A stretch of 64,000 nt of DNA from Tessaracoccus oleiagri (GTDB lineage: Bacteria > Actinomycetota > Actinomycetes > Propionibacteriales > Propionibacteriaceae), in contig NZ_FNGP01000001.1 in NCBI RefSeq assembly GCF_900103275.1, positions 496,001-560,000 on the forward strand, in the 5' to 3' direction. Below are positions 54,900 to 63,626 of this stretch, in pieces. The translations under genes were made by a program, and so were the position numbers. Each line of letters opens with the position of its first letter. Positions within the stretch are counted from its first letter, which is position 1. The notes under the pieces are model-generated. The model was not told the origin of the DNA. It ran no database searches and saw nothing but the letters and a program-made list of their open reading frames with translations.

Positions 54900-56951
54900 G
54901 TGACCAAGAGCGTTTACATTTCAGCTGCCGAGCGGCAGGTCAGCAAGTCCGCGATAGCACTCGGAGTGCTGGAGCTCTTCGAGAGCCGCGTGAAACGTGT
55001 TGGCGTGTTCCGCCCGCTGGTGCACTCCCTCGAGCACGACATCGTCGCCGAGGCGCTCCTCGGCGAGAGCAAGCAGTCGCTGCAGTCCGCGCTGGGCGTC
55101 ACCTACGAGCAGTACGCGAACGACCCCGAGGCCGCCATCGACACCGTCGTGGCGAAGTACTCCGCGCTGGCCGAGAACTACGACGCCATGGTGATCGTCG
55201 GCTCCGACTACACCGACATAGAGTCCGCGCAGGAGCTCGACCACAACGCCGTGTTCGCCGCCAACCTGAACGCCCCGGTGATCTTCGTCACCCGCGCCGG
55301 CAAGCGGACCCCCGACGAGGTCGCCCGCCTCACCGAGACCGCCGTCGACGCCTTCGAGGCCCGCCACAACTCCGTGATCGCGATCATCGGCACCCACGCC
55401 GACCCCGCCGGACGCGAGGAGGTCGCCGAGCAGCTGCGCGCGATCCGCGACGTGCCGGTCGCCGTCGTGCCGTTCAACGCGCTGCTCGGGGCGCCCACCG
55501 TCGGCCAGCAGTTCGAGGCCACCGGCGCGCAGTTCTGGCGCGGCAAGGAGCGGTTCCTCAACGCGGAGGCGCTGCACACCATCGTCGGCGCCATGACCCT
55601 GCCGAACCTGCTGCCTTACCTGCAGCGCGAGGCCACCGTCGTGCTCCCGTCGGACCGCACCGAGCTGGTGCCAGCGCTGATCATGGCGCACCTCTCCCCC
55701 GAGTACGGGCCGCTCGCGTCGTTGATCCTCACCGGCGGCTTCCAGATCCCCGAGTCGATCGAGAAGCTGTTCGCCGACTCCGGCATCGACCTGCCGATCG
55801 GCATCACGAAGGAGGACACGTTCACGACGGCGACGAAGCTGCAGTCGGTGAACTCGTTCTCCACCTCGTCCCCGCGCAAGATCGAGGCGGCGCGCAACCT
55901 GTTCGCCTCCTACGTCGACTCCGAGGCGCTCCTCGCGGCGATCGACCTGCCGCGCACCGGCATCCGCACGCCCACGATGTTCGAGCACCAGCTGATGGGC
56001 CTGGCGCGGGCGCACCGCCGGCGCATCGTCCTGCCCGAGGCCACCGACGACCGCGTGCTCACCGCCGCCGACATCGTCCTGACCCGCGGCGTGGCCGACA
56101 TCATACTGCTGGGCGACGCGGGCCGCATCGCGCGACGCGCCTCCGAGCTGGGCCTCAACCTGTCCGCCGCCGAGGTCGTCAACCCGAACGACCCGGAACT
56201 GGTCGAGCGCTTCGCCCACGAGTACGCGCATCTGCGCGCCCACAAGGGCGTCAACGTGGAGCAGGCCCGCGAGAAGCTGCAGGACCTGTCCTACTTCGGC
56301 ACCATGATGGTCCACCTCGGCATGGCCGACGGCATGGTCTCCGGCGCCATCAACACCACCGCCAACACCATCCGCCCGTCGCTGGAGTTCATCAAGACCC
56401 GCCCCGGCGTGAGCGTCGTGTCCGGCTCGTTCCTGATGGCCATGTCGGACCGCGTCCTCGTCTACGCCGACTGCGCCGTCAACCCCGACCCCACCCCCGC
56501 GCAGCTCGCCGACATCGCGATCAGCTCCGCCGCCACCGCCGAGACCTTCGGCATCGAGCCGCGGATCGCGATGCTGTCGTACTCGACGGGCGACTCCGGC
56601 TCCGGCGCGGACGTCGACAAGGTCCGCGAGGCCACGCAGCTCGTGCGCGAGCGGGCCCCGCACCTGAAGGTCGACGGCCCGATGCAGTTCGACGCGGCGG
56701 TCGACCGCGTCGTCGCCGAGAAGAAGATGCCGAACTCCGAGGTGGCCGGCCGGGCGACGGTGTTCATCTTCCCGGACCTCAACACCGGCAACAACACTTA
56801 CAAGGCCGTTCAGCGCCACTCCGGCGCTGTCGCCATCGGACCCCTGCTGCAGGGCCTGAACAAGGCGGTCAATGACCTTTCGCGCGGTGCGCTCGTCGAC
56901 GACATCGTCTCGACGATCACGATCACCGCCGTGCAGTCCCAGACCCTCTGA
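54900..56951 (+). CDS. pta: phosphate acetyltransferase
   Basis: A 683-aa long-form Pta converting acetyl-CoA and phosphate to acetyl phosphate and CoA. Residues 1-200 form a BioD-like domain (SAAERQVSKSAIALGVLE), about 215-325 a DRTGG domain, and 355-675 the catalytic PTA_PTB domain (LPEATDDRVLTAADIVL; NPDPTPAQLADIAISSAAT; SYSTGDSGSG). GTG 54900 is the start. It pairs with ackA, which begins 19 nt later, forming the ATP-yielding acetate branch that would follow PFL. Confidence 0.95.
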   Translation: MTKSVYISAAERQVSKSAIALGVLELFESRVKRVGVFRPLVHSLEHDIVAEALLGESKQSLQSALGVTYEQYANDPEAAIDTVVAKYSALAENYDAMVIVGSDYTDIESAQELDHNAVFAANLNAPVIFVTRAGKRTPDEVARLTETAVDAFEARHNSVIAIIGTHADPAGREEVAEQLRAIRDVPVAVVPFNALLGAPTVGQQFEATGAQFWRGKERFLNAEALHTIVGAMTLPNLLPYLQREATVVLPSDRTELVPALIMAHLSPEYGPLASLILTGGFQIPESIEKLFADSGIDLPIGITKEDTFTTATKLQSVNSFSTSSPRKIEAARNLFASYVDSEALLAAIDLPRTGIRTPTMFEHQLMGLARAHRRRIVLPEATDDRVLTAADIVLTRGVADIILLGDAGRIARRASELGLNLSAAEVVNPNDPELVERFAHEYAHLRAHKGVNVEQAREKLQDLSYFGTMMVHLGMADGMVSGAINTTANTIRPSLEFIKTRPGVSVVSGSFLMAMSDRVLVYADCAVNPDPTPAQLADIAISSAATAETFGIEPRIAMLSYSTGDSGSGADVDKVREATQLVRERAPHLKVDGPMQFDAAVDRVVAEKKMPNSEVAGRATVFIFPDLNTGNNTYKAVQRHSGAVAIGPLLQGLNKAVNDLSRGALVDDIVSTITITAVQSQTL

Positions 56952-56970
56952 CCCGAGAAAGGCGCCGACG

Positions 56971-58155
56971 TTGGCTTCCATCCTTCTGCTCAACTGCGGT
57001 TCATCGTCCATCAAGTACCAGCTCCTCGACCCGGAGGTGGGCGTGCCGGAGGCGGTGGGCATCGTCCAGCGCATCGGCCAGGACGTCTCCACCATCGACC
57101 ACGAGGTGGGCGACCAGGAGCTGCATGACGAGCGGCGCTTCGCCGACCACACGGAGGCGGTCGCCGCCGTCGTGAAGATGTTCGACGAGCACGGGCCGAG
57201 CCTCGACAAGGTCGTCGCGGTGGGTCACCGCACCGTCCACGGAGGTGACGAGTTCGTCGAGTCCGTGGAGATCACCGACGCCGTGGTCGCCAAGCTGCAC
57301 GAGCTGATCCCGCTGGCGCCGCTGCACAACCCGCCGGCCATCGCCGGCATCGAGGGCGCCAAGGCCGTGCTGCCCGACGTCCCGCACGTCGCGATCTTCG
57401 ACACCGCCTTCTTCTCCTCGCTGCCCGAGGAGGCCTACACCTACGCGATCGACCGCGAGGTGGGGCGCAAGCACGGCATCCGCCGCTACGGCTTCCACGG
57501 CACGTCGCACCAGTTCGTCTCGCAGGAGGCCGCGAAGTTCCTCGGCCGCCCGCTCGAGGACCTGAAGCTCATCGTCGCCCACATCGGCAACGGCGCCTCC
57601 ATGTCGGCCATCGACGGGGGCGTCGCCATCGACACCTCCATGGGCCTCACGCCGCTCGAGGGGCTCGTGATGGGGACCCGCTCCGGCGACATCGACCCCG
57701 GCGTGCACCAGTTCCTCGTGGGCAAGGGCATGACGATCCAAGAGGTCGACACGCTGCTCAACAAGCAGTCGGGCCTGCTGGGCATGGCGGACAAGACGGA
57801 CATGCGCGACATCGTCGCCGCCGTCGAGGCCGGTGACCACGACGCCGAGCTGGCGCTGAAGATCTACACGCGCCGCATCGTGAAGTACATCGGCGCCTAC
57901 GCCGCCATCCTCGGCGGGGTCGACGCGGTCGTGTTCACGGCCGGCGTCGGCGAGAACGCCGCCGAGGTGCGGCGCCGCGTCGTCGAGTCCCTCTCCGGCC
58001 TCGGCTTCGAGCTCGACCCCGAGGCGAACGCCGTCCGCTCCAAGGTGGCTCGCGAGATCACCGCGCCCACGTCGAGGGTGAAGGTGCTCGTCGTCCCGAC
58101 CAACGAGGAGTTGGCCATGGCCCGCGAGACGATGCGTGTGATCAGCGAGGGCTGA
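56971..58155 (+). CDS. ackA: acetate kinase
   Basis: A 394-aa acetate kinase making ATP and acetate from acetyl phosphate. Signature pieces are LLLNCGSSSIKYQL (adenosine/phosphate-binding N-terminus), HRTVHGGDEF, FDTAFFSSLP, YGFHGTSHQFVS, HIGNGASMSAIDGG, TRSGDIDP and FTAGVGENA. The likely start is TTG 56971, eight bases after GAGAAAGG; no ATG fits. It is translationally close to pta. Confidence 0.95.
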   Translation: MASILLLNCGSSSIKYQLLDPEVGVPEAVGIVQRIGQDVSTIDHEVGDQELHDERRFADHTEAVAAVVKMFDEHGPSLDKVVAVGHRTVHGGDEFVESVEITDAVVAKLHELIPLAPLHNPPAIAGIEGAKAVLPDVPHVAIFDTAFFSSLPEEAYTYAIDREVGRKHGIRRYGFHGTSHQFVSQEAAKFLGRPLEDLKLIVAHIGNGASMSAIDGGVAIDTSMGLTPLEGLVMGTRSGDIDPGVHQFLVGKGMTIQEVDTLLNKQSGLLGMADKTDMRDIVAAVEAGDHDAELALKIYTRRIVKYIGAYAAILGGVDAVVFTAGVGENAAEVRRRVVESLSGLGFELDPEANAVRSKVAREITAPTSRVKVLVVPTNEELAMARETMRVISEG

Positions 58156-58612: not shown

Positions 58613-59182
58613 ATGCAAACCCAGACGGAACCGTCGAGCGTGGTCGCATTCACCTTCTCCGGTGGCCTCGTCGAGTCCGTGACCATCGCCGACGGCTGGT
58701 CCGGCACGGTGGACCCGGAGCAGTTCGGGTCGCTCGCCCTCGTCGCCTTCCACGAGCAGCGCGCCCGCGCCACCGCACCGTCCCCCACCGGGCCAGGGGC
58801 GGGACCCCTGCGCGTCCCGGCGTCGGTGCGCGATGACGTCGGCCAGCGCCTGCAGGCGCTCAACACCCGGGCCTTCGCCGCCCTGCGCTCCGCCGTCGAG
58901 ATGCTCGACGCGAAGTCCGCCCCACCCGAGCCCGAGACCCACACCGACCGCTACCGGCACGTGACGGTGACCGCGCGGGGCGGGCACGTCACCGGCATCG
59001 AGGTGAGTCCGCGCCACCTGTCGCAGGACCCGGTGCAGATCGAGCACGACCTCGCGGAAGCCCTCAATTCCGCCCTGGGGGCGGCGCGCGCCGGCGGCCC
59101 CGGCGACGACCTCGCCGCGCTCTGGGCCGAGCACGCCTCCATCAGCAAGATCCTCGACGACTACCGGGAGCCGCCCCGATGA
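58613..59182 (+). CDS. YbaB/EbfC-like protein, first gene of an unassigned three-gene cassette
   Basis: A 189-aa protein. Residues 1-40 form a beta-meander (VVAFTFSGGLVESVTI), then a helical stretch, and from about 115 a second strand set (RYRHVTVTARGGHVTGIEVSP) and a helix resembling YbaB/EbfC folds. YbaB-like proteins occur next to WXG100 genes in actinobacteria. No signal peptide or TM is present. Its stop overlaps the next gene (ATGA). Function is unknown. Confidence 0.6.
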   Translation: MQTQTEPSSVVAFTFSGGLVESVTIADGWSGTVDPEQFGSLALVAFHEQRARATAPSPTGPGAGPLRVPASVRDDVGQRLQALNTRAFAALRSAVEMLDAKSAPPEPETHTDRYRHVTVTARGGHVTGIEVSPRHLSQDPVQIEHDLAEALNSALGAARAGGPGDDLAALWAEHASISKILDDYREPPR

Positions 59183-59520
59183 CTGACTACGACACCCTCG
59201 CGTTCCGCGCCTCCTGGTTCAAGGCCCAGGAGGAGAAGCTCGAGGCGGCCGCCGACGAGCTGGCCTGCATCAGCGCCGACCTCCTCGCCATCGACTATGA
59301 CTGGCAGGAGAGCTACCGCTTCGCCCCCTTCCGGGACGCCTACGACGAGATGCGCACGGCGCTGACCTCCGGCCCGGCCGGCGCCGACGAGGGGGTGGCC
59401 CTGCTGAACGACCTGCGCAGCGGCGTCGTCGACACGGGGCGCGAGTACCTGCGCACCGAGGCGCAGAACGCGGGCATCGCCCGCGAGATCGAAACGCTCA
59501 TCGAAGAACTCGACCTCTGA
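59179..59520 (+). CDS. WXG100/ESX-associated-like helical protein
   Basis: A 113-aa helical protein with two long amphipathic helices, a first one around ASWFKAQEEKLEAAADELA and a second around NDLRSGVVDTGREYLRTEAQNAGIAREIETL (split), joined by a turn containing DWQESYRF. Size and helix-turn-helix shape resemble WXG100/ESX secretion-associated (DUF2580-like) proteins, though a clean W-x-G is not seen. No T7SS machinery lies in the window. ATG 59179 overlaps the upstream stop. Confidence 0.6.
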   Translation: MTDYDTLAFRASWFKAQEEKLEAAADELACISADLLAIDYDWQESYRFAPFRDAYDEMRTALTSGPAGADEGVALLNDLRSGVVDTGREYLRTEAQNAGIAREIETLIEELDL

Positions 59521-59530
59521 GAGGAACGCA

Positions 59531-60280
59531 ATGACCGCGACCGAGGACCAGTACCTCGCCGATCTGAACGAGCTGAAGAGCGGCCTGCAGAAGGACCTGC
59601 CCCGCGTGCCGGGCGTCATCGACGGCTGCTGCGACGCCCTCCGCTGGGTGGTGTTCTGGGACCGCGGCTGGGTGGAGGGCAAACGCGCGGAGGCCCACGC
59701 CGAGTTCGCGAAACTGCAGACCGAGGCCGACCGCTTCATCACCGCCTGCGAGGAGGAGTGCGGCATGGTGGTCACCGTGAAGTCCATGCGCGAGGCGGCC
59801 GACGCGTACGAGGACATCGACTGGGACGCGCTCCTGTCGCAGGTCGACGTCGGCACCATGATGGGCGACCGCTCCGGCTGGGTGTCCCCCAACCAGGCGC
59901 TCTACGAGGCGAAGGTGGAGCCGCTGAAGGCGAAGATCCTCGGCCTCGAGTCCCAGCTCACCAAGATGATCGAGTCCATGCGGACCCTGGACGACACGCT
60001 GCAGAGCTACATCCTCGGTGCGCTGCTCGCGCTGGCCGGCATGCTGCTCGCCTACGTGGGGCTCATCGTCGCGCTGGCCACCGGGTGGACGGGCGTGGGC
60101 GCGATCATCGGGCTCGTCGTCGCCATCGTGAGCTTCCTGTTCTCGTTCGTGGCGTTCTTCACGCTGCCGGACGTGCGCGGCGAGGTCGAGGGCCAGCGGG
60201 ACTCCGTCTCGCAGGCGGCCTCGGTCGTCGACCAGTCGCGGTGGCCCGCGCCGCCGGCGCTCCCCGCCGGCAGCTGGTAG
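59531..60280 (+). CDS. helical protein with a C-terminal two-TM hairpin, possible effector
   Basis: A 249-aa protein with an N-terminal helical region (about 1-150, two or three long amphipathic helices, Cys pairs at 33-34 and near 73-77). Two TM helices (161-183 and 188-211) follow, then a 38-residue Pro-rich tail. The layout of helical bundle plus TM hairpin recalls pore-forming or WXG-linked effectors, but no family is recognised. It follows the previous gene by 10 nt with GAGAGGAACG as RBS, so all three are one operon. Confidence 0.6.
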   Translation: MTATEDQYLADLNELKSGLQKDLPRVPGVIDGCCDALRWVVFWDRGWVEGKRAEAHAEFAKLQTEADRFITACEEECGMVVTVKSMREAADAYEDIDWDALLSQVDVGTMMGDRSGWVSPNQALYEAKVEPLKAKILGLESQLTKMIESMRTLDDTLQSYILGALLALAGMLLAYVGLIVALATGWTGVGAIIGLVVAIVSFLFSFVAFFTLPDVRGEVEGQRDSVSQAASVVDQSRWPAPPALPAGSW

Positions 60281-60340: not shown

Positions 60341-61117
60341 ATGGCTACAGCGTTGATCACGGGAGGCACCGCCGGCATCGGATACGAGTTCGCTCGCGAA
60401 TTCGCGGCCCGTGGGACCGACCTCGTGCTCGTCGCCCGGGACACCGCCCGGCTGGAGTCCATCTCGTCGGACTTGCAGCAGACGTTCGGTGTACGGGTGG
60501 AGACCCACACTGCGGACTTGTCCGTGCGCGCCGACATGGAGCGCATCGCCGCGATCATCGAGGATGAGTCGAAGCCGCTCGACTGGGTGGTCAACAACGC
60601 CGGCTTCGGCCTCCACTCCACCGTGCTGGACCCCTCGGAGACCGACGTGCACGCGCGGGCCCTGGACGTGATGTGCCTGGCCGTGCTCGTGCTCGGCGGG
60701 GCCGCCGGACGGGCGATGCGTCGTCGCGGCTCCGGGCGGATCATCAACGTCGCATCCTCCGCCAGCCAGATCTTCACGGGCAACTACTCCGCCGTGAAGG
60801 CCTGGTGCCTGAACTATTCCGAGTCGCTCGGCGTCGAGCTCCACGGCACCGGCGTCACCGTCACTGCGCTGTGCCCCGGCTGGGTGCGCACCGAGTTCCA
60901 TGAGCGTGCCGGCATCAAGGCCCACAGCCTCCCGGACATCGTCTGGATCGACTCGGGGAAGCTCGTCAAGGAGGCGTTGCGCGACGCCGAGAAGGGCAGG
61001 CCGGTCAGCGTGCCCACGCTCAAGTGGAAGCTGGCGCTGCTGCTCGCCAAGTTCGCCCCGAAGAGCTTCCTACGGTGGTTCTCGCGTAAGCTCACCGCAT
61101 CCCGCAAGAAGAAGTAG
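60341..61117 (+). CDS. short-chain dehydrogenase/reductase
   Basis: A 258-aa classical SDR. NAD(P) motif GGTAGIG at 8-14, NNAG at 85-88, and the catalytic Tyr149-X3-Lys153 (YSAVK) with Ser at 139/140. The helical tail is basic (KLTASRKKK). It precedes the acyltransferase by 2 nt and is co-transcribed with the AGPS-like enzyme, so it may reduce an acyl- or alkyl-dihydroxyacetone phosphate, as the SDR PexRAP does in eukaryotes (inference). Confidence 0.88.
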   Translation: MATALITGGTAGIGYEFAREFAARGTDLVLVARDTARLESISSDLQQTFGVRVETHTADLSVRADMERIAAIIEDESKPLDWVVNNAGFGLHSTVLDPSETDVHARALDVMCLAVLVLGGAAGRAMRRRGSGRIINVASSASQIFTGNYSAVKAWCLNYSESLGVELHGTGVTVTALCPGWVRTEFHERAGIKAHSLPDIVWIDSGKLVKEALRDAEKGRPVSVPTLKWKLALLLAKFAPKSFLRWFSRKLTASRKKK

Positions 61118-61119
61118 TG

Positions 61120-61923
61120 ATGGCCAAGTCGCTCGACGAGCAGCGCAAGCGCTATACGACGAAGACCGGCGCCGTCACGCGGCAAACGGCGCAGATGCTG
61201 TTGCTCAAGCCGGCGCTGCACCGGATGCTGAAGATCCGCGTCCACGGGCTGGCCAACCTGCACGGCCTGGAGAGCCCGTTCGTCGTCTTCGGCAACCACA
61301 GCTCCCACCTCGACGCGCCGCTGATCCTCACGTCGCTGCCGTCGCGGCTCGGGAAGCAGGTGGCCGTCGGCGCCGCGGGCGACCACTTCTACGACAAGTG
61401 GTGGAAGACCGGCCCCATGAGCCTCTTCCTCAACGGCTTCCCGATCGACCGCGGCAAGGGCGGGAAGGGTCAGCGCGGCATGTCCTCGGCCCTTCTTGCC
61501 GACGGTGTCCCGATCATGCTGTTCCCCGAGGGCACCCGGTCGCGCAACGGCGCGATGGGTCCCTTCAAGCCCGGCGCGGCCGCGCTATGCATCTCCAACG
61601 GCTGCCCGGCCGTGCCCGTCGCGCTGGTCGGCGCGCACGAGGCGTGGCCGGCACAGCAGAAGCACCTGCCTCGGTCGCGGCCCGAGGTGCACGTCGTGAT
61701 CGGCCGCCCCATGTACCCGAGCCCCGGAGAGATCGCCCACAGCTTCAGCGAGCGGATGCGTCGCCAGCTGCTGGAGCTCCACGACACCACTGCCCAGGCG
61801 TATGGCAGGAAGACGCTCGTCGAATACGCCCGCACCGCCGCGCTCGAGGCGGCCCAAGCCACCGAGATTGCTCACCTGGCCGAACAGGCGAAGCATCAGG
61901 CCGAAATCCAGGAGGATCGATGA
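61120..61923 (+). CDS. PlsC-type lysophospholipid / DHAP acyltransferase-like protein
   Basis: A 267-aa PlsC-superfamily acyltransferase. NHSSHLD (59-65) is the HX4D catalytic block and FPEGTRSR (135-142) the glycerol-phosphate-binding block. It would acylate a phosphorylated glycerol or dihydroxyacetone backbone from acyl-CoA or acyl-ACP at the membrane. ATG 61120 is used instead of GTG 61117. Its stop overlaps the AGPS-like gene, fitting a joint role in ether-lipid assembly (inference). Confidence 0.88.
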   Translation: MAKSLDEQRKRYTTKTGAVTRQTAQMLLLKPALHRMLKIRVHGLANLHGLESPFVVFGNHSSHLDAPLILTSLPSRLGKQVAVGAAGDHFYDKWWKTGPMSLFLNGFPIDRGKGGKGQRGMSSALLADGVPIMLFPEGTRSRNGAMGPFKPGAAALCISNGCPAVPVALVGAHEAWPAQQKHLPRSRPEVHVVIGRPMYPSPGEIAHSFSERMRRQLLELHDTTAQAYGRKTLVEYARTAALEAAQATEIAHLAEQAKHQAEIQEDR

Positions 61924-63626
61924 TCGAAGGCGTCAAGCAGCAGAAGTGGTGGGGCTGGGGCGAGGAGGGACATGCCTACTCCGCGGAGGGGAAGCCCAAG
62001 TTCGCACCGTTCGTGTTGAAGATGACCGGACTCGACATCAATGCCCCCATCAAGCCGGCGCCGAAGTTCGAGGACCTGACGGTGCCGCCGTCGATCCTCG
62101 GCGACGAGCTCCGCGCGAAGCTGGTCGACGCCCTCGGTGAGGGCTACGTGCAGGACGACGACCTGACCCGCGTCGTGCACGCGTTCGGCAAGGGCGTGCG
62201 AGACCTGATGCGCGTCCGACGGGGAGACCTGGGCCGCGTGCCCGACGTCGTGGTCTACCCCGCCGACGAGGCACAGGTGGCTGCCGTGATGGACGCGGTC
62301 GTCGAGGCCGACGGCGTGGTCATCCCGTTCGGCGGCGGCTCCAACATCGTCGCCGCCCTCGAAGCGGTCCCGGGCGAGTCCCGGCCCGTCGTGAGCGTCA
62401 ACCTCGGCCGCCTCAACAAGGTCCTCGAGATCGACGAGCAGTCCGGCCTCGCCCGCATCCAGGCCGGCGTCTTCGGGCCCGACATGGAGGAGCAGCTGCA
62501 GGCCAAGGGCTGGACCATGGGCCACCACCCCGACTCCTTCGTGTGGTCCACGCTCGGCGGCTGGATCGCCACCCGCAGCTCCGGCATGCAGTCCGACAAG
62601 TACGGCGACATCGCCGACATCACCCGCGGCCTGCGCATGGTCATGCCCGGCCAGATCCTCGAGCTCCGCCCGCTGCCGTCGACGTCGTCGGGCCCCAGCG
62701 TCCGCGAGATGGTGATCGGATCCGAGGGCCGGCTCGGCATAATCACCGAGGCGTGGGTCAACGTCCACCGCATCCCCGAGGTCCGCGAGATCCAGGCCTA
62801 CTTCTTCCCCGACTACTACGCCGGCCTCAAGGCCTGCGAGGAGATCGTCCACTCCGACGCCAAGGTGATGATGGCGCGCGTGTCCGACGCGATCGAGACG
62901 CAGTACATCATGGCCAACGGCAAGGAGACGAAGTCGAAGGTCAAGAAGCTCGCCAGCAAGGGCATCCAGAAGCTCATGGAGTCCAAGAAGTGGGACCTCG
63001 AGCAGATCGCGATGAGCTTCATCGGGTTCGAGGGGTCCGCCAACGACGTGCGCTACCAGAAGGGCCTCGTCGGCAAGATCGTGAAGAAGCACGGCGGCTT
63101 CGGCGTCGGCTCCGGGCCGGGCGCGCTGTACGACCAGAAGAAGTACGACACCCCGTACCTCCGCGACTACATGCTCGACCGAGGCCTCGTCTGCGACGTG
63201 TCGGAGACCACCACGCCGTGGCGCCACGCGGCGGACCTGCACCGCAAGACCACCAAGGCCTTCAACGAGGCGATGGAGCGGATCGGGAAGCGCGGCGTCG
63301 TGTTCTGCCACCTGAGCCACTCCTACCACTCGGGCGCGTGCCAGTACTTCACGTTCGTCGTCAACGACGACACCGAGACCGCCGAGCGCAACTACGACGT
63401 CGCGAAGCGGACCATCCAGCAGTCGTTCGTCGACCACCACGCCACCATTTCGCACCACCACGGCGTCGGCGAGGAGCACAGCCCCTGGCTGGAGCAGGAC
63501 ATCTCCCCCGCCGGCGTCTTCATCCAGCGCAAGCTGTTCGAGGGCGTCGACCCGGGCAACAACCTGAACCCCGGCAAGATCATCCACGACGGCGAGCCCG
63601 GCATCACGTCGAACTCGCCCCGCTGA
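61920..63626 (+). CDS. FAD-binding oxidase, alkyl-DHAP synthase (AGPS)-like
   Basis: A 568-aa FAD-dependent enzyme similar to alkylglycerone-phosphate synthase, which swaps an acyl for an alkyl chain on DHAP to make the ether bond. The PP-loop is PFGGGSN (136-142), STLGGWIATRSSG (210-222) is the FAD/SAD-type signature, MVIGSEGRLGIITEA follows, and near the end SHSYHSGACQYFTF and SHHHGVGEEHSPWL (His 512-514) match the AGPS active site. Its ATG overlaps the acyltransferase stop. A glycolate/D-lactate-type oxidase is the fallback identity. Confidence 0.82.
   Translation: MIEGVKQQKWWGWGEEGHAYSAEGKPKFAPFVLKMTGLDINAPIKPAPKFEDLTVPPSILGDELRAKLVDALGEGYVQDDDLTRVVHAFGKGVRDLMRVRRGDLGRVPDVVVYPADEAQVAAVMDAVVEADGVVIPFGGGSNIVAALEAVPGESRPVVSVNLGRLNKVLEIDEQSGLARIQAGVFGPDMEEQLQAKGWTMGHHPDSFVWSTLGGWIATRSSGMQSDKYGDIADITRGLRMVMPGQILELRPLPSTSSGPSVREMVIGSEGRLGIITEAWVNVHRIPEVREIQAYFFPDYYAGLKACEEIVHSDAKVMMARVSDAIETQYIMANGKETKSKVKKLASKGIQKLMESKKWDLEQIAMSFIGFEGSANDVRYQKGLVGKIVKKHGGFGVGSGPGALYDQKKYDTPYLRDYMLDRGLVCDVSETTTPWRHAADLHRKTTKAFNEAMERIGKRGVVFCHLSHSYHSGACQYFTFVVNDDTETAERNYDVAKRTIQQSFVDHHATISHHHGVGEEHSPWLEQDISPAGVFIQRKLFEGVDPGNNLNPGKIIHDGEPGITSNSPR

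Follow-up and report, generated by a model that had tools for sequence, protein, structure and literature searches.

A conserved SDR-PlsC-AGPS gene set in Tessaracoccus oleiagri that looks like a bacterial version of the ether-lipid pathway of animals

AGPS-type flavoenzymes have been described from mammals and from Dictyostelium (AGPS, ADPS), and AGPS in bacteria is already known. The available text of PMC11868695 notes AGPS homologues in Actinobacteria from metagenomes, and that of PMC11948995 describes genomes in which AGPS occurs together with a different enzyme for fatty alcohol. In mammals, GNPAT plus the short-chain dehydrogenase/reductase (SDR) DHRS7B can make lysophosphatidate from dihydroxyacetone phosphate (DHAP), according to the accessible part of PMC13200781. 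Here we analyze a stretch of 64,000 nucleotides from Tessaracoccus oleiagri (contig NZ_FNGP01000001.1, positions 496,001 to 560,000; "the window", in whose own numbering positions are given). Near its end lies a real, conserved candidate ether-lipid operon of three genes:

60341..61117, plus strand: SDR of 258 residues (adh_short domain and motifs), candidate acyl/alkyl-DHAP reductase with a role like that of PexRAP/DHRS7B
61117..61923, plus strand: PlsC-type acyltransferase (PF01553 and motifs), candidate DHAP acyltransferase; start at GTG 61117 or ATG 61120
61920..63626, plus strand: AGPS-type flavoenzyme of 568 residues (phmmer, tree and fold)

The genes are consecutive between 60341 and 63626. 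The stop of the SDR gene touches the GTG/ATG start of the PlsC gene (TAGTGATG), and the PlsC stop overlaps the AGPS start in the tetranucleotide ATGA. These coordinates bear out an earlier note on this DNA, which had described three genes on one strand with overlapping or near-overlapping ends, and the conservation of their order in relatives, raised in the same note, was also found. Of 34 named-record loci (L036-L069, several truncated by contig ends and L068 in pieces), 32 have the order SDR-PlsC-AGPS; in the remaining two the contig starts only within AGPS or shortly ahead of it. Judged by this conserved order, the arrangement is beyond chance. Among named organisms, close relatives belong to Tessaracoccus, Arachnia and other Propionibacteriaceae. 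A longer open reading frame of 908 residues from 60900 is a mechanical extension; the homology to relatives starts at residue 1 of the 568-residue reading. We also surveyed one draw of 117 Propionibacteriaceae genomes (AGPS threshold E up to 1e-40). PlsC immediately precedes AGPS in 48 of the 60 AGPS-bearing genomes; the other 12 comprise seven rearranged loci of one genus (g17), four genomes with PlsC and AGPS on separate contigs and one foreign copy (G132).

The best PDB match of the flavoenzyme is Dictyostelium ADPS (phmmer, 2uuu, E 5.4e-110), with 4bby at E 1.3e-73, whereas a D-lactate dehydrogenase matches much more weakly (E 3e-20). In a quick tree, which carried warnings for long branches meeting and uneven letter make-up, the AGPS group including this enzyme is split from lactate/glycolate-type enzymes with a support of 100 (SH-like approximate likelihood ratio test, SH-aLRT); the enzyme is thus closer to AGPS than to enzymes for lactate, glycolate or 2-hydroxyglutarate. 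The predicted model is nearest to solved AGPS structures and has the AGPS fold over the whole chain, N-terminal stretch included; identity in the structural alignment is 28 percent to guinea pig AGPS and 34-36 percent to the Dictyostelium enzyme. The catalytic Arg, Arg, Tyr and HHH of AGPS are all kept, as mapped by alignment:

62241..62648, plus strand: flavin adenine dinucleotide (FAD)-binding domain, residues 108-243 (PF01565, 5.5e-32)
62877..62879, plus strand: Arg320, aligned with Dictyostelium R352 and guinea pig R419, invariant in 31 sequences
63162..63164, plus strand: Arg415, aligned with Dictyostelium R447 and guinea pig R515
63345..63347, plus strand: Tyr476, aligned with Dictyostelium Y508 and guinea pig Y578
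63453..63461, plus strand: His512-His514 of SHHHGVG, aligned with guinea pig H615-617

Catalytic roles of the aligned Arg/Arg/Tyr, including Dictyostelium Y508, are given in the available text of PMC3509576. Titles of PDB entries of AGPS mutants name Tyr578Phe and Arg419His. The HHH triad, which has a catalytic role in AGPS, stands at the residues given in the earlier note. That note had also proposed to check the AGPS identity against glycolate oxidases by sequence profile and phylogeny, and by structural alignment with human AGPS; sequence search, tree and structural alignment all came out for AGPS. Its "AGPS SAD/FAD motif" is better worded as Pfam FAD_binding_4 (residues 108-243) plus FAD-oxidase_C (residues 285-554). 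A 2-hydroxy-acid dehydrogenase of the glycolate or D-lactate type would have these Pfam domains in common, and the enzyme does match TIGR00387 weakly (118.7 bits, cut-off 567.9). Since the best PDB matches, the tree, the catalytic residues and the fold are all those of AGPS, we consider this identity highly improbable, and we reject that of a glycolate or lactate oxidase on PDB matches, tree and model. Sequence, tree and model thus strongly support membership of the AGPS group with retained catalytic residues, and the enzyme very likely performs AGPS-type chemistry, in which an alkyl group would replace the acyl group on DHAP. Residues 62-229 have a match of 32 percent identity in a haloarchaeon, Salinigranum (L070 8001-8531), which was excluded from the 34-locus count.

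We propose that the operon turns DHAP into the glycerol-ether backbone found in alkyl ether phospholipids, and assign this explanation as a whole a probability of roughly 0.7. The PlsC-type enzyme would acylate DHAP, the AGPS-type flavoenzyme would exchange the acyl group of acyl-DHAP for a fatty alcohol to give alkyl-DHAP, and the SDR would reduce alkyl-DHAP, and probably acyl-DHAP as well; the resulting 1-alkyl- (or 1-acyl-) glycerol 3-phosphate would then enter normal phospholipid synthesis. We infer which substrates and cofactor PlsC and SDR use, where the alcohol comes from and that ether lipids are made. The one-to-one map onto the eukaryotic steps drawn in the earlier note is plausible, except that SDR and PlsC do not serve ether lipids exclusively and that the fatty-alcohol enzyme lies outside the operon. 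AGPS needs a fatty alcohol and the operon contains no enzyme for it, so that a one-to-one route needs a supplier elsewhere. The candidate in the window's genome (G000; 3.16 Mb, 11 contigs) is unlinked:

G000:C6:18204-20546, on a contig other than the operon's: fatty acyl reductase (FAR) fused to a HAD-IB phosphatase, 781 residues (P0004; PF07993 and motifs), which would supply the fatty alcohol

P0004 matches NAD_binding_4 (PF07993) at 9.6e-46 and has the motifs TGxTGFxG and YxxxK; the Sterile domain (FAR C-terminal) scores 34.5 bits, slightly below its cut-off of 35.4. The family profile is matched full-length in 14 of 16 genus-set genomes and in fragments in the other two. Across the family survey AGPS and FAR each occur in 60 of 117 genomes, with both in 59, neither in 56 and one alone in 2; the genome with FAR and without AGPS (G034) is 82 percent complete. 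For the choice of independent pairs, a tree built from SDR and PlsC proteins stood in for the species tree (110 of 123 rows scored, 13 extra genus genomes left out). Six such pairs differ in AGPS; five of them differ in FAR in the same way, none in the opposite way and one not at all. In genus g17 FAR lies 0.8-1.0 kb from AGPS in seven genomes, with an SDR between the two in 5/5 inspected (one of these SDRs in two pieces) and a further SDR beside PlsC in 4/5, none being found there in G139. FAR-HAD is likely the supplier of fatty alcohol to AGPS.

Some genes around FAR-HAD and AGPS deserve mention in their own right. In the window's genome a hisA-type gene precedes FAR-HAD, and a Lar_N protein and then a 261-residue protein follow it (L086 11562-13861); the latter has no Pfam match and looks like an acyltransferase without the usual catalytic histidine. 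In G113 a 299-residue protein of no Pfam family lies directly behind FAR-HAD, beside SDR and AGPS (L149 11796-12695), and could be a further lipid enzyme. G132 (L154, L155) belongs to a genus otherwise devoid of AGPS; its AGPS is foreign and clusters with that of guinea pig, and a FAR-HAD (43 percent) lies at a separate locus. AGPS is broken over frames in two records of the genus, L024, from a genome that is 60 percent complete, and L068, which may reflect assembly error.

Several observations weigh against the proposed ether-lipid function. One family genome (G091) has AGPS without FAR, and the sign test over the independent pairs reaches only p 0.0625. The link between the two genes looks looser in 12 genomes of three other families, which contain FAR in 9, AGPS in 9 (E up to 1e-40) and both in 8. 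There, G026 has FAR without AGPS and G023 AGPS without FAR, suggesting that FAR has a life outside AGPS, and G020 and G029, both of one family, have neither. FAR is accompanied in these families by Lar_N and PlsC-like genes: a PlsC-like gene follows about 3 kb behind FAR in the four inspected stretches, Lar_N was confirmed between them in the one tested, and a hisA-type gene stands beside FAR in 2/2 tested. Three AGPS-bearing family genomes (G037, G061, G047) have no SDR beside PlsC-AGPS in the stretch examined. In Myxococcus, loss of the AGPS gene lowered ether lipids only slightly, as reported in the available text of PMC9131029. The PlsC-type protein has AGP_acyltrn as its best curated match, at 54.9 against a cut-off of 102.95; two further PlsC-type proteins of this genome likewise stay below it (82 and 73.9), so this score does not tell which acceptor the protein uses. 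Finally, the SDR-PlsC pair persists in genomes without AGPS and cannot consist of purely ether enzymes, so the pair must be wider than the ether branch and a function specific to ether lipids is ruled out for it.

The last two points also bear on a simpler assignment, in which the PlsC-type protein is an ordinary acyltransferase of lysophosphatidate or glycerol 3-phosphate (G3P) and the SDR an unrelated reductase of ketoacyl type, leaving AGPS as the sole ether enzyme with acyl-DHAP from elsewhere. The PlsC-type protein matches PF01553 (5.5e-21) and has the acyltransferase motifs NHSSHLD and FPEGTRS; its sole PDB match (E up to 0.01) is a lysophosphatidate acyltransferase at 1.5e-10, GNPAT not being among the sequences compared. 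The SDR (adh_short 1.5e-36; nucleotide-binding TGGTAGIG, NNAG and the YxxxK motif YSAVK) has mycolate reductase as best curated match, far under the cut-off (134.9 of 380 bits). This assignment would, however, leave AGPS without a source of acyl-DHAP and without a reductase, and does not explain why an SDR stands beside AGPS where PlsC is distant; we consider it unlikely. For the proposed ether-lipid function, we infer the roles of PlsC as DHAP acyltransferase and of the SDR as alkyl-DHAP reductase from linkage and not from family membership.

This linkage is widespread. At E up to 1e-12, 114 of the 117 family genomes have a PlsC match, that of G034 reaching no more than 31 percent. An SDR lies upstream of PlsC on the same strand in 110 of 123 loci. 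Among the other 13, two are cut off by a contig edge, the SDR is reversed in one and degenerate in another, and nine are without SDR in the stretch examined, the AGPS-bearing G037, G061, G047, G139 and G099 among these nine. A tree of 42 SDRs separates those of the family from nine found elsewhere (support 92/92, not starred). The four AGPS-linked SDRs fall at two places inside the family, so the tree does not show that the AGPS-linked copy arose only once.

The pair may have a more general function. Glycerolipids could start in many of these bacteria from DHAP, with SDR and PlsC forming a general acyl-DHAP route to lysophosphatidate that replaces GpsA, and AGPS being an optional branch. This explanation contains the proposed ether-lipid function and extends it to all glycerolipids of GpsA-less genomes; we regard it as possible, at somewhat below even odds. 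The distribution of GpsA and PlsY, the spread of SDR-PlsC and the plsC-ddl context together suggest it. PlsY is matched in none of the 117 family genomes, and the only three PF01553 matches of the window's genome lie in short frames, none of PlsB size. GpsA (PF07479; "strong" being E up to 1e-44, a threshold of our choice) gives a strong match in 22 family genomes, a weak one in 38 and none in 56, with a split copy in 1; the split copy set aside, 94 are without a strong match, and the window's genome has no match. The order plsC-gpsA-ddl is shared by G105, G051 and two genomes of one other family (G020, G029), but the window's genome has no gpsA between plsC and ddl (L088 7709-10460, G000:C3), where an AHSA1 gene and, by eye, an ArsR-like reading frame stand instead. 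The arrangement in g17, with one SDR beside AGPS and mostly another beside PlsC, agrees with this route, and mammalian DHRS7B reduces both acyl- and alkyl-DHAP according to the available text of PMC13200781. One genome without match to GpsA or glycerol kinase keeps SDR-PlsC (G039); it fits the idea, as a single incomplete genome (95 percent).

On the other hand, glycerol kinase is above cut-off in 102 of 117 family genomes, so glycerol can yield G3P, and phosphatidylglycerol synthesis requires free G3P. G040, a genome of 100 percent completeness, has neither a GpsA match nor an SDR above about 32-33 percent, and G145 has no SDR near PlsC. Because of glycerol kinase and G040 we do not take an obligatory acyl-DHAP pathway as the best explanation. 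Eight stretches inspected in other, mostly GpsA-bearing families (strong GpsA in 11 of 12 genomes) contain SDR homologues (about 42-49 percent) without PlsC, AGPS or FAR, and the SDR may have another job. Strong GpsA is found in 0/56 genomes without AGPS and FAR; the AGPS losses all lie inside one GpsA-less clade, so this pattern does not represent many independent events. GpsA tracks AGPS in none of five independent pairs, and we dismiss a relation between the two losses. That most Propionibacteriaceae dropped GpsA and make their glycerophospholipids with the adjacently encoded PlsC-type enzyme and SDR, as an acyl-DHAP pathway of the kind regarded as eukaryotic, with the AGPS/FAR-HAD ether branch lost several times together, is a tentative scenario which we would not yet favor.

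The weak PF07479 matches are not taken as canonical GpsA: four scanned proteins are under every curated cut-off shown, whereas a strong reference is over two. Such proteins may still form G3P. Two of the four (L171, L173) are divergent GpsA-like proteins beside FGGY kinases and patchy within genera. A model paper on C. acnes names a glycerol-3-phosphate dehydrogenase reaction in its available text (PMC10374032).

Upstream of the operon lie two conserved neighbors of the SDR-PlsC pair:

54900..56951, plus strand: phosphotransacetylase-type gene (PTA_PTB, PF01515, 4.5e-128), with a homologue in 27/34 named loci and 15/40 family regions
56872..58155, plus strand: acetate-kinase-type gene (PF00871, 4.1e-146), true start probably inside the reading frame, with a homologue in 27/34 named loci and 19/40 family regions

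Between the latter and the SDR gene, at 58613-60280, three small genes look by eye like secretion genes of the ESX/WXG type. Pfam gives only a weak DUF2157 for them, and homologues occur in 1/34 named loci and 0/40 family regions.

If the ether-lipid function is true, a large actinobacterial family would make alkyl ether lipids by an animal-type route without peroxisomes, and would offer a simple, separable enzyme set for asking about the origin of the eukaryotic pathway. A bacterial acyl-DHAP pathway would be predicted as well, changing the usual picture in which bacterial phospholipid synthesis always begins at glycerol 3-phosphate. Top-ranked literature results contained no report of ether lipids in Tessaracoccus, which is not proof of absence, and none of the SDR-PlsC-AGPS arrangement, the FAR-HAD partner, the family distribution or the tie to a missing GpsA.

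Compared with described systems, the anaerobic PlsA/PlsR plasmalogen route also makes ether lipids and is reported from Propionibacteriales in the available text of PMC9702350. Unlike the route proposed here, it acts on finished diacyl lipids. PF09989, which we take to be a marker of PlsA, is absent in 18 of 21 genus-set genomes including that of the window, and we reject this route there. The myxobacterial elb cluster shares FAR and PlsC-like functions (ElbD) and a separate HAD protein, ElbB; ElbD is, however, one large multifunctional protein, and the available text of PMC9131029 names no AGPS for the cluster. In MXAN_1676-1674 of Myxococcus xanthus, according to the same text, AGPS shares an operon with an NAD-dependent enzyme and a GNPAT-like acyltransferase domain. 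The acyltransferase of that operon forms a fusion with FAR, whereas here a single acyltransferase has an SDR partner and FAR-HAD lies at another locus. With DHRS7B/PexRAP, which acts on acyl- and alkyl-DHAP according to the accessible part of PMC13200781, the SDR has only the superfamily and the proposed role in common. The flavoenzyme shares with mammalian and Dictyostelium AGPS the sequence family, the aligned Arg/Arg/Tyr and HHH and the fold including the N-terminal stretch; unlike these, it is bacterial, with no peroxisome. As far as can be read from the genes, the locus looks like a bacterial version of the peroxisomal ether-lipid pathway of animals, with a likely fatty-alcohol enzyme elsewhere in the genome.

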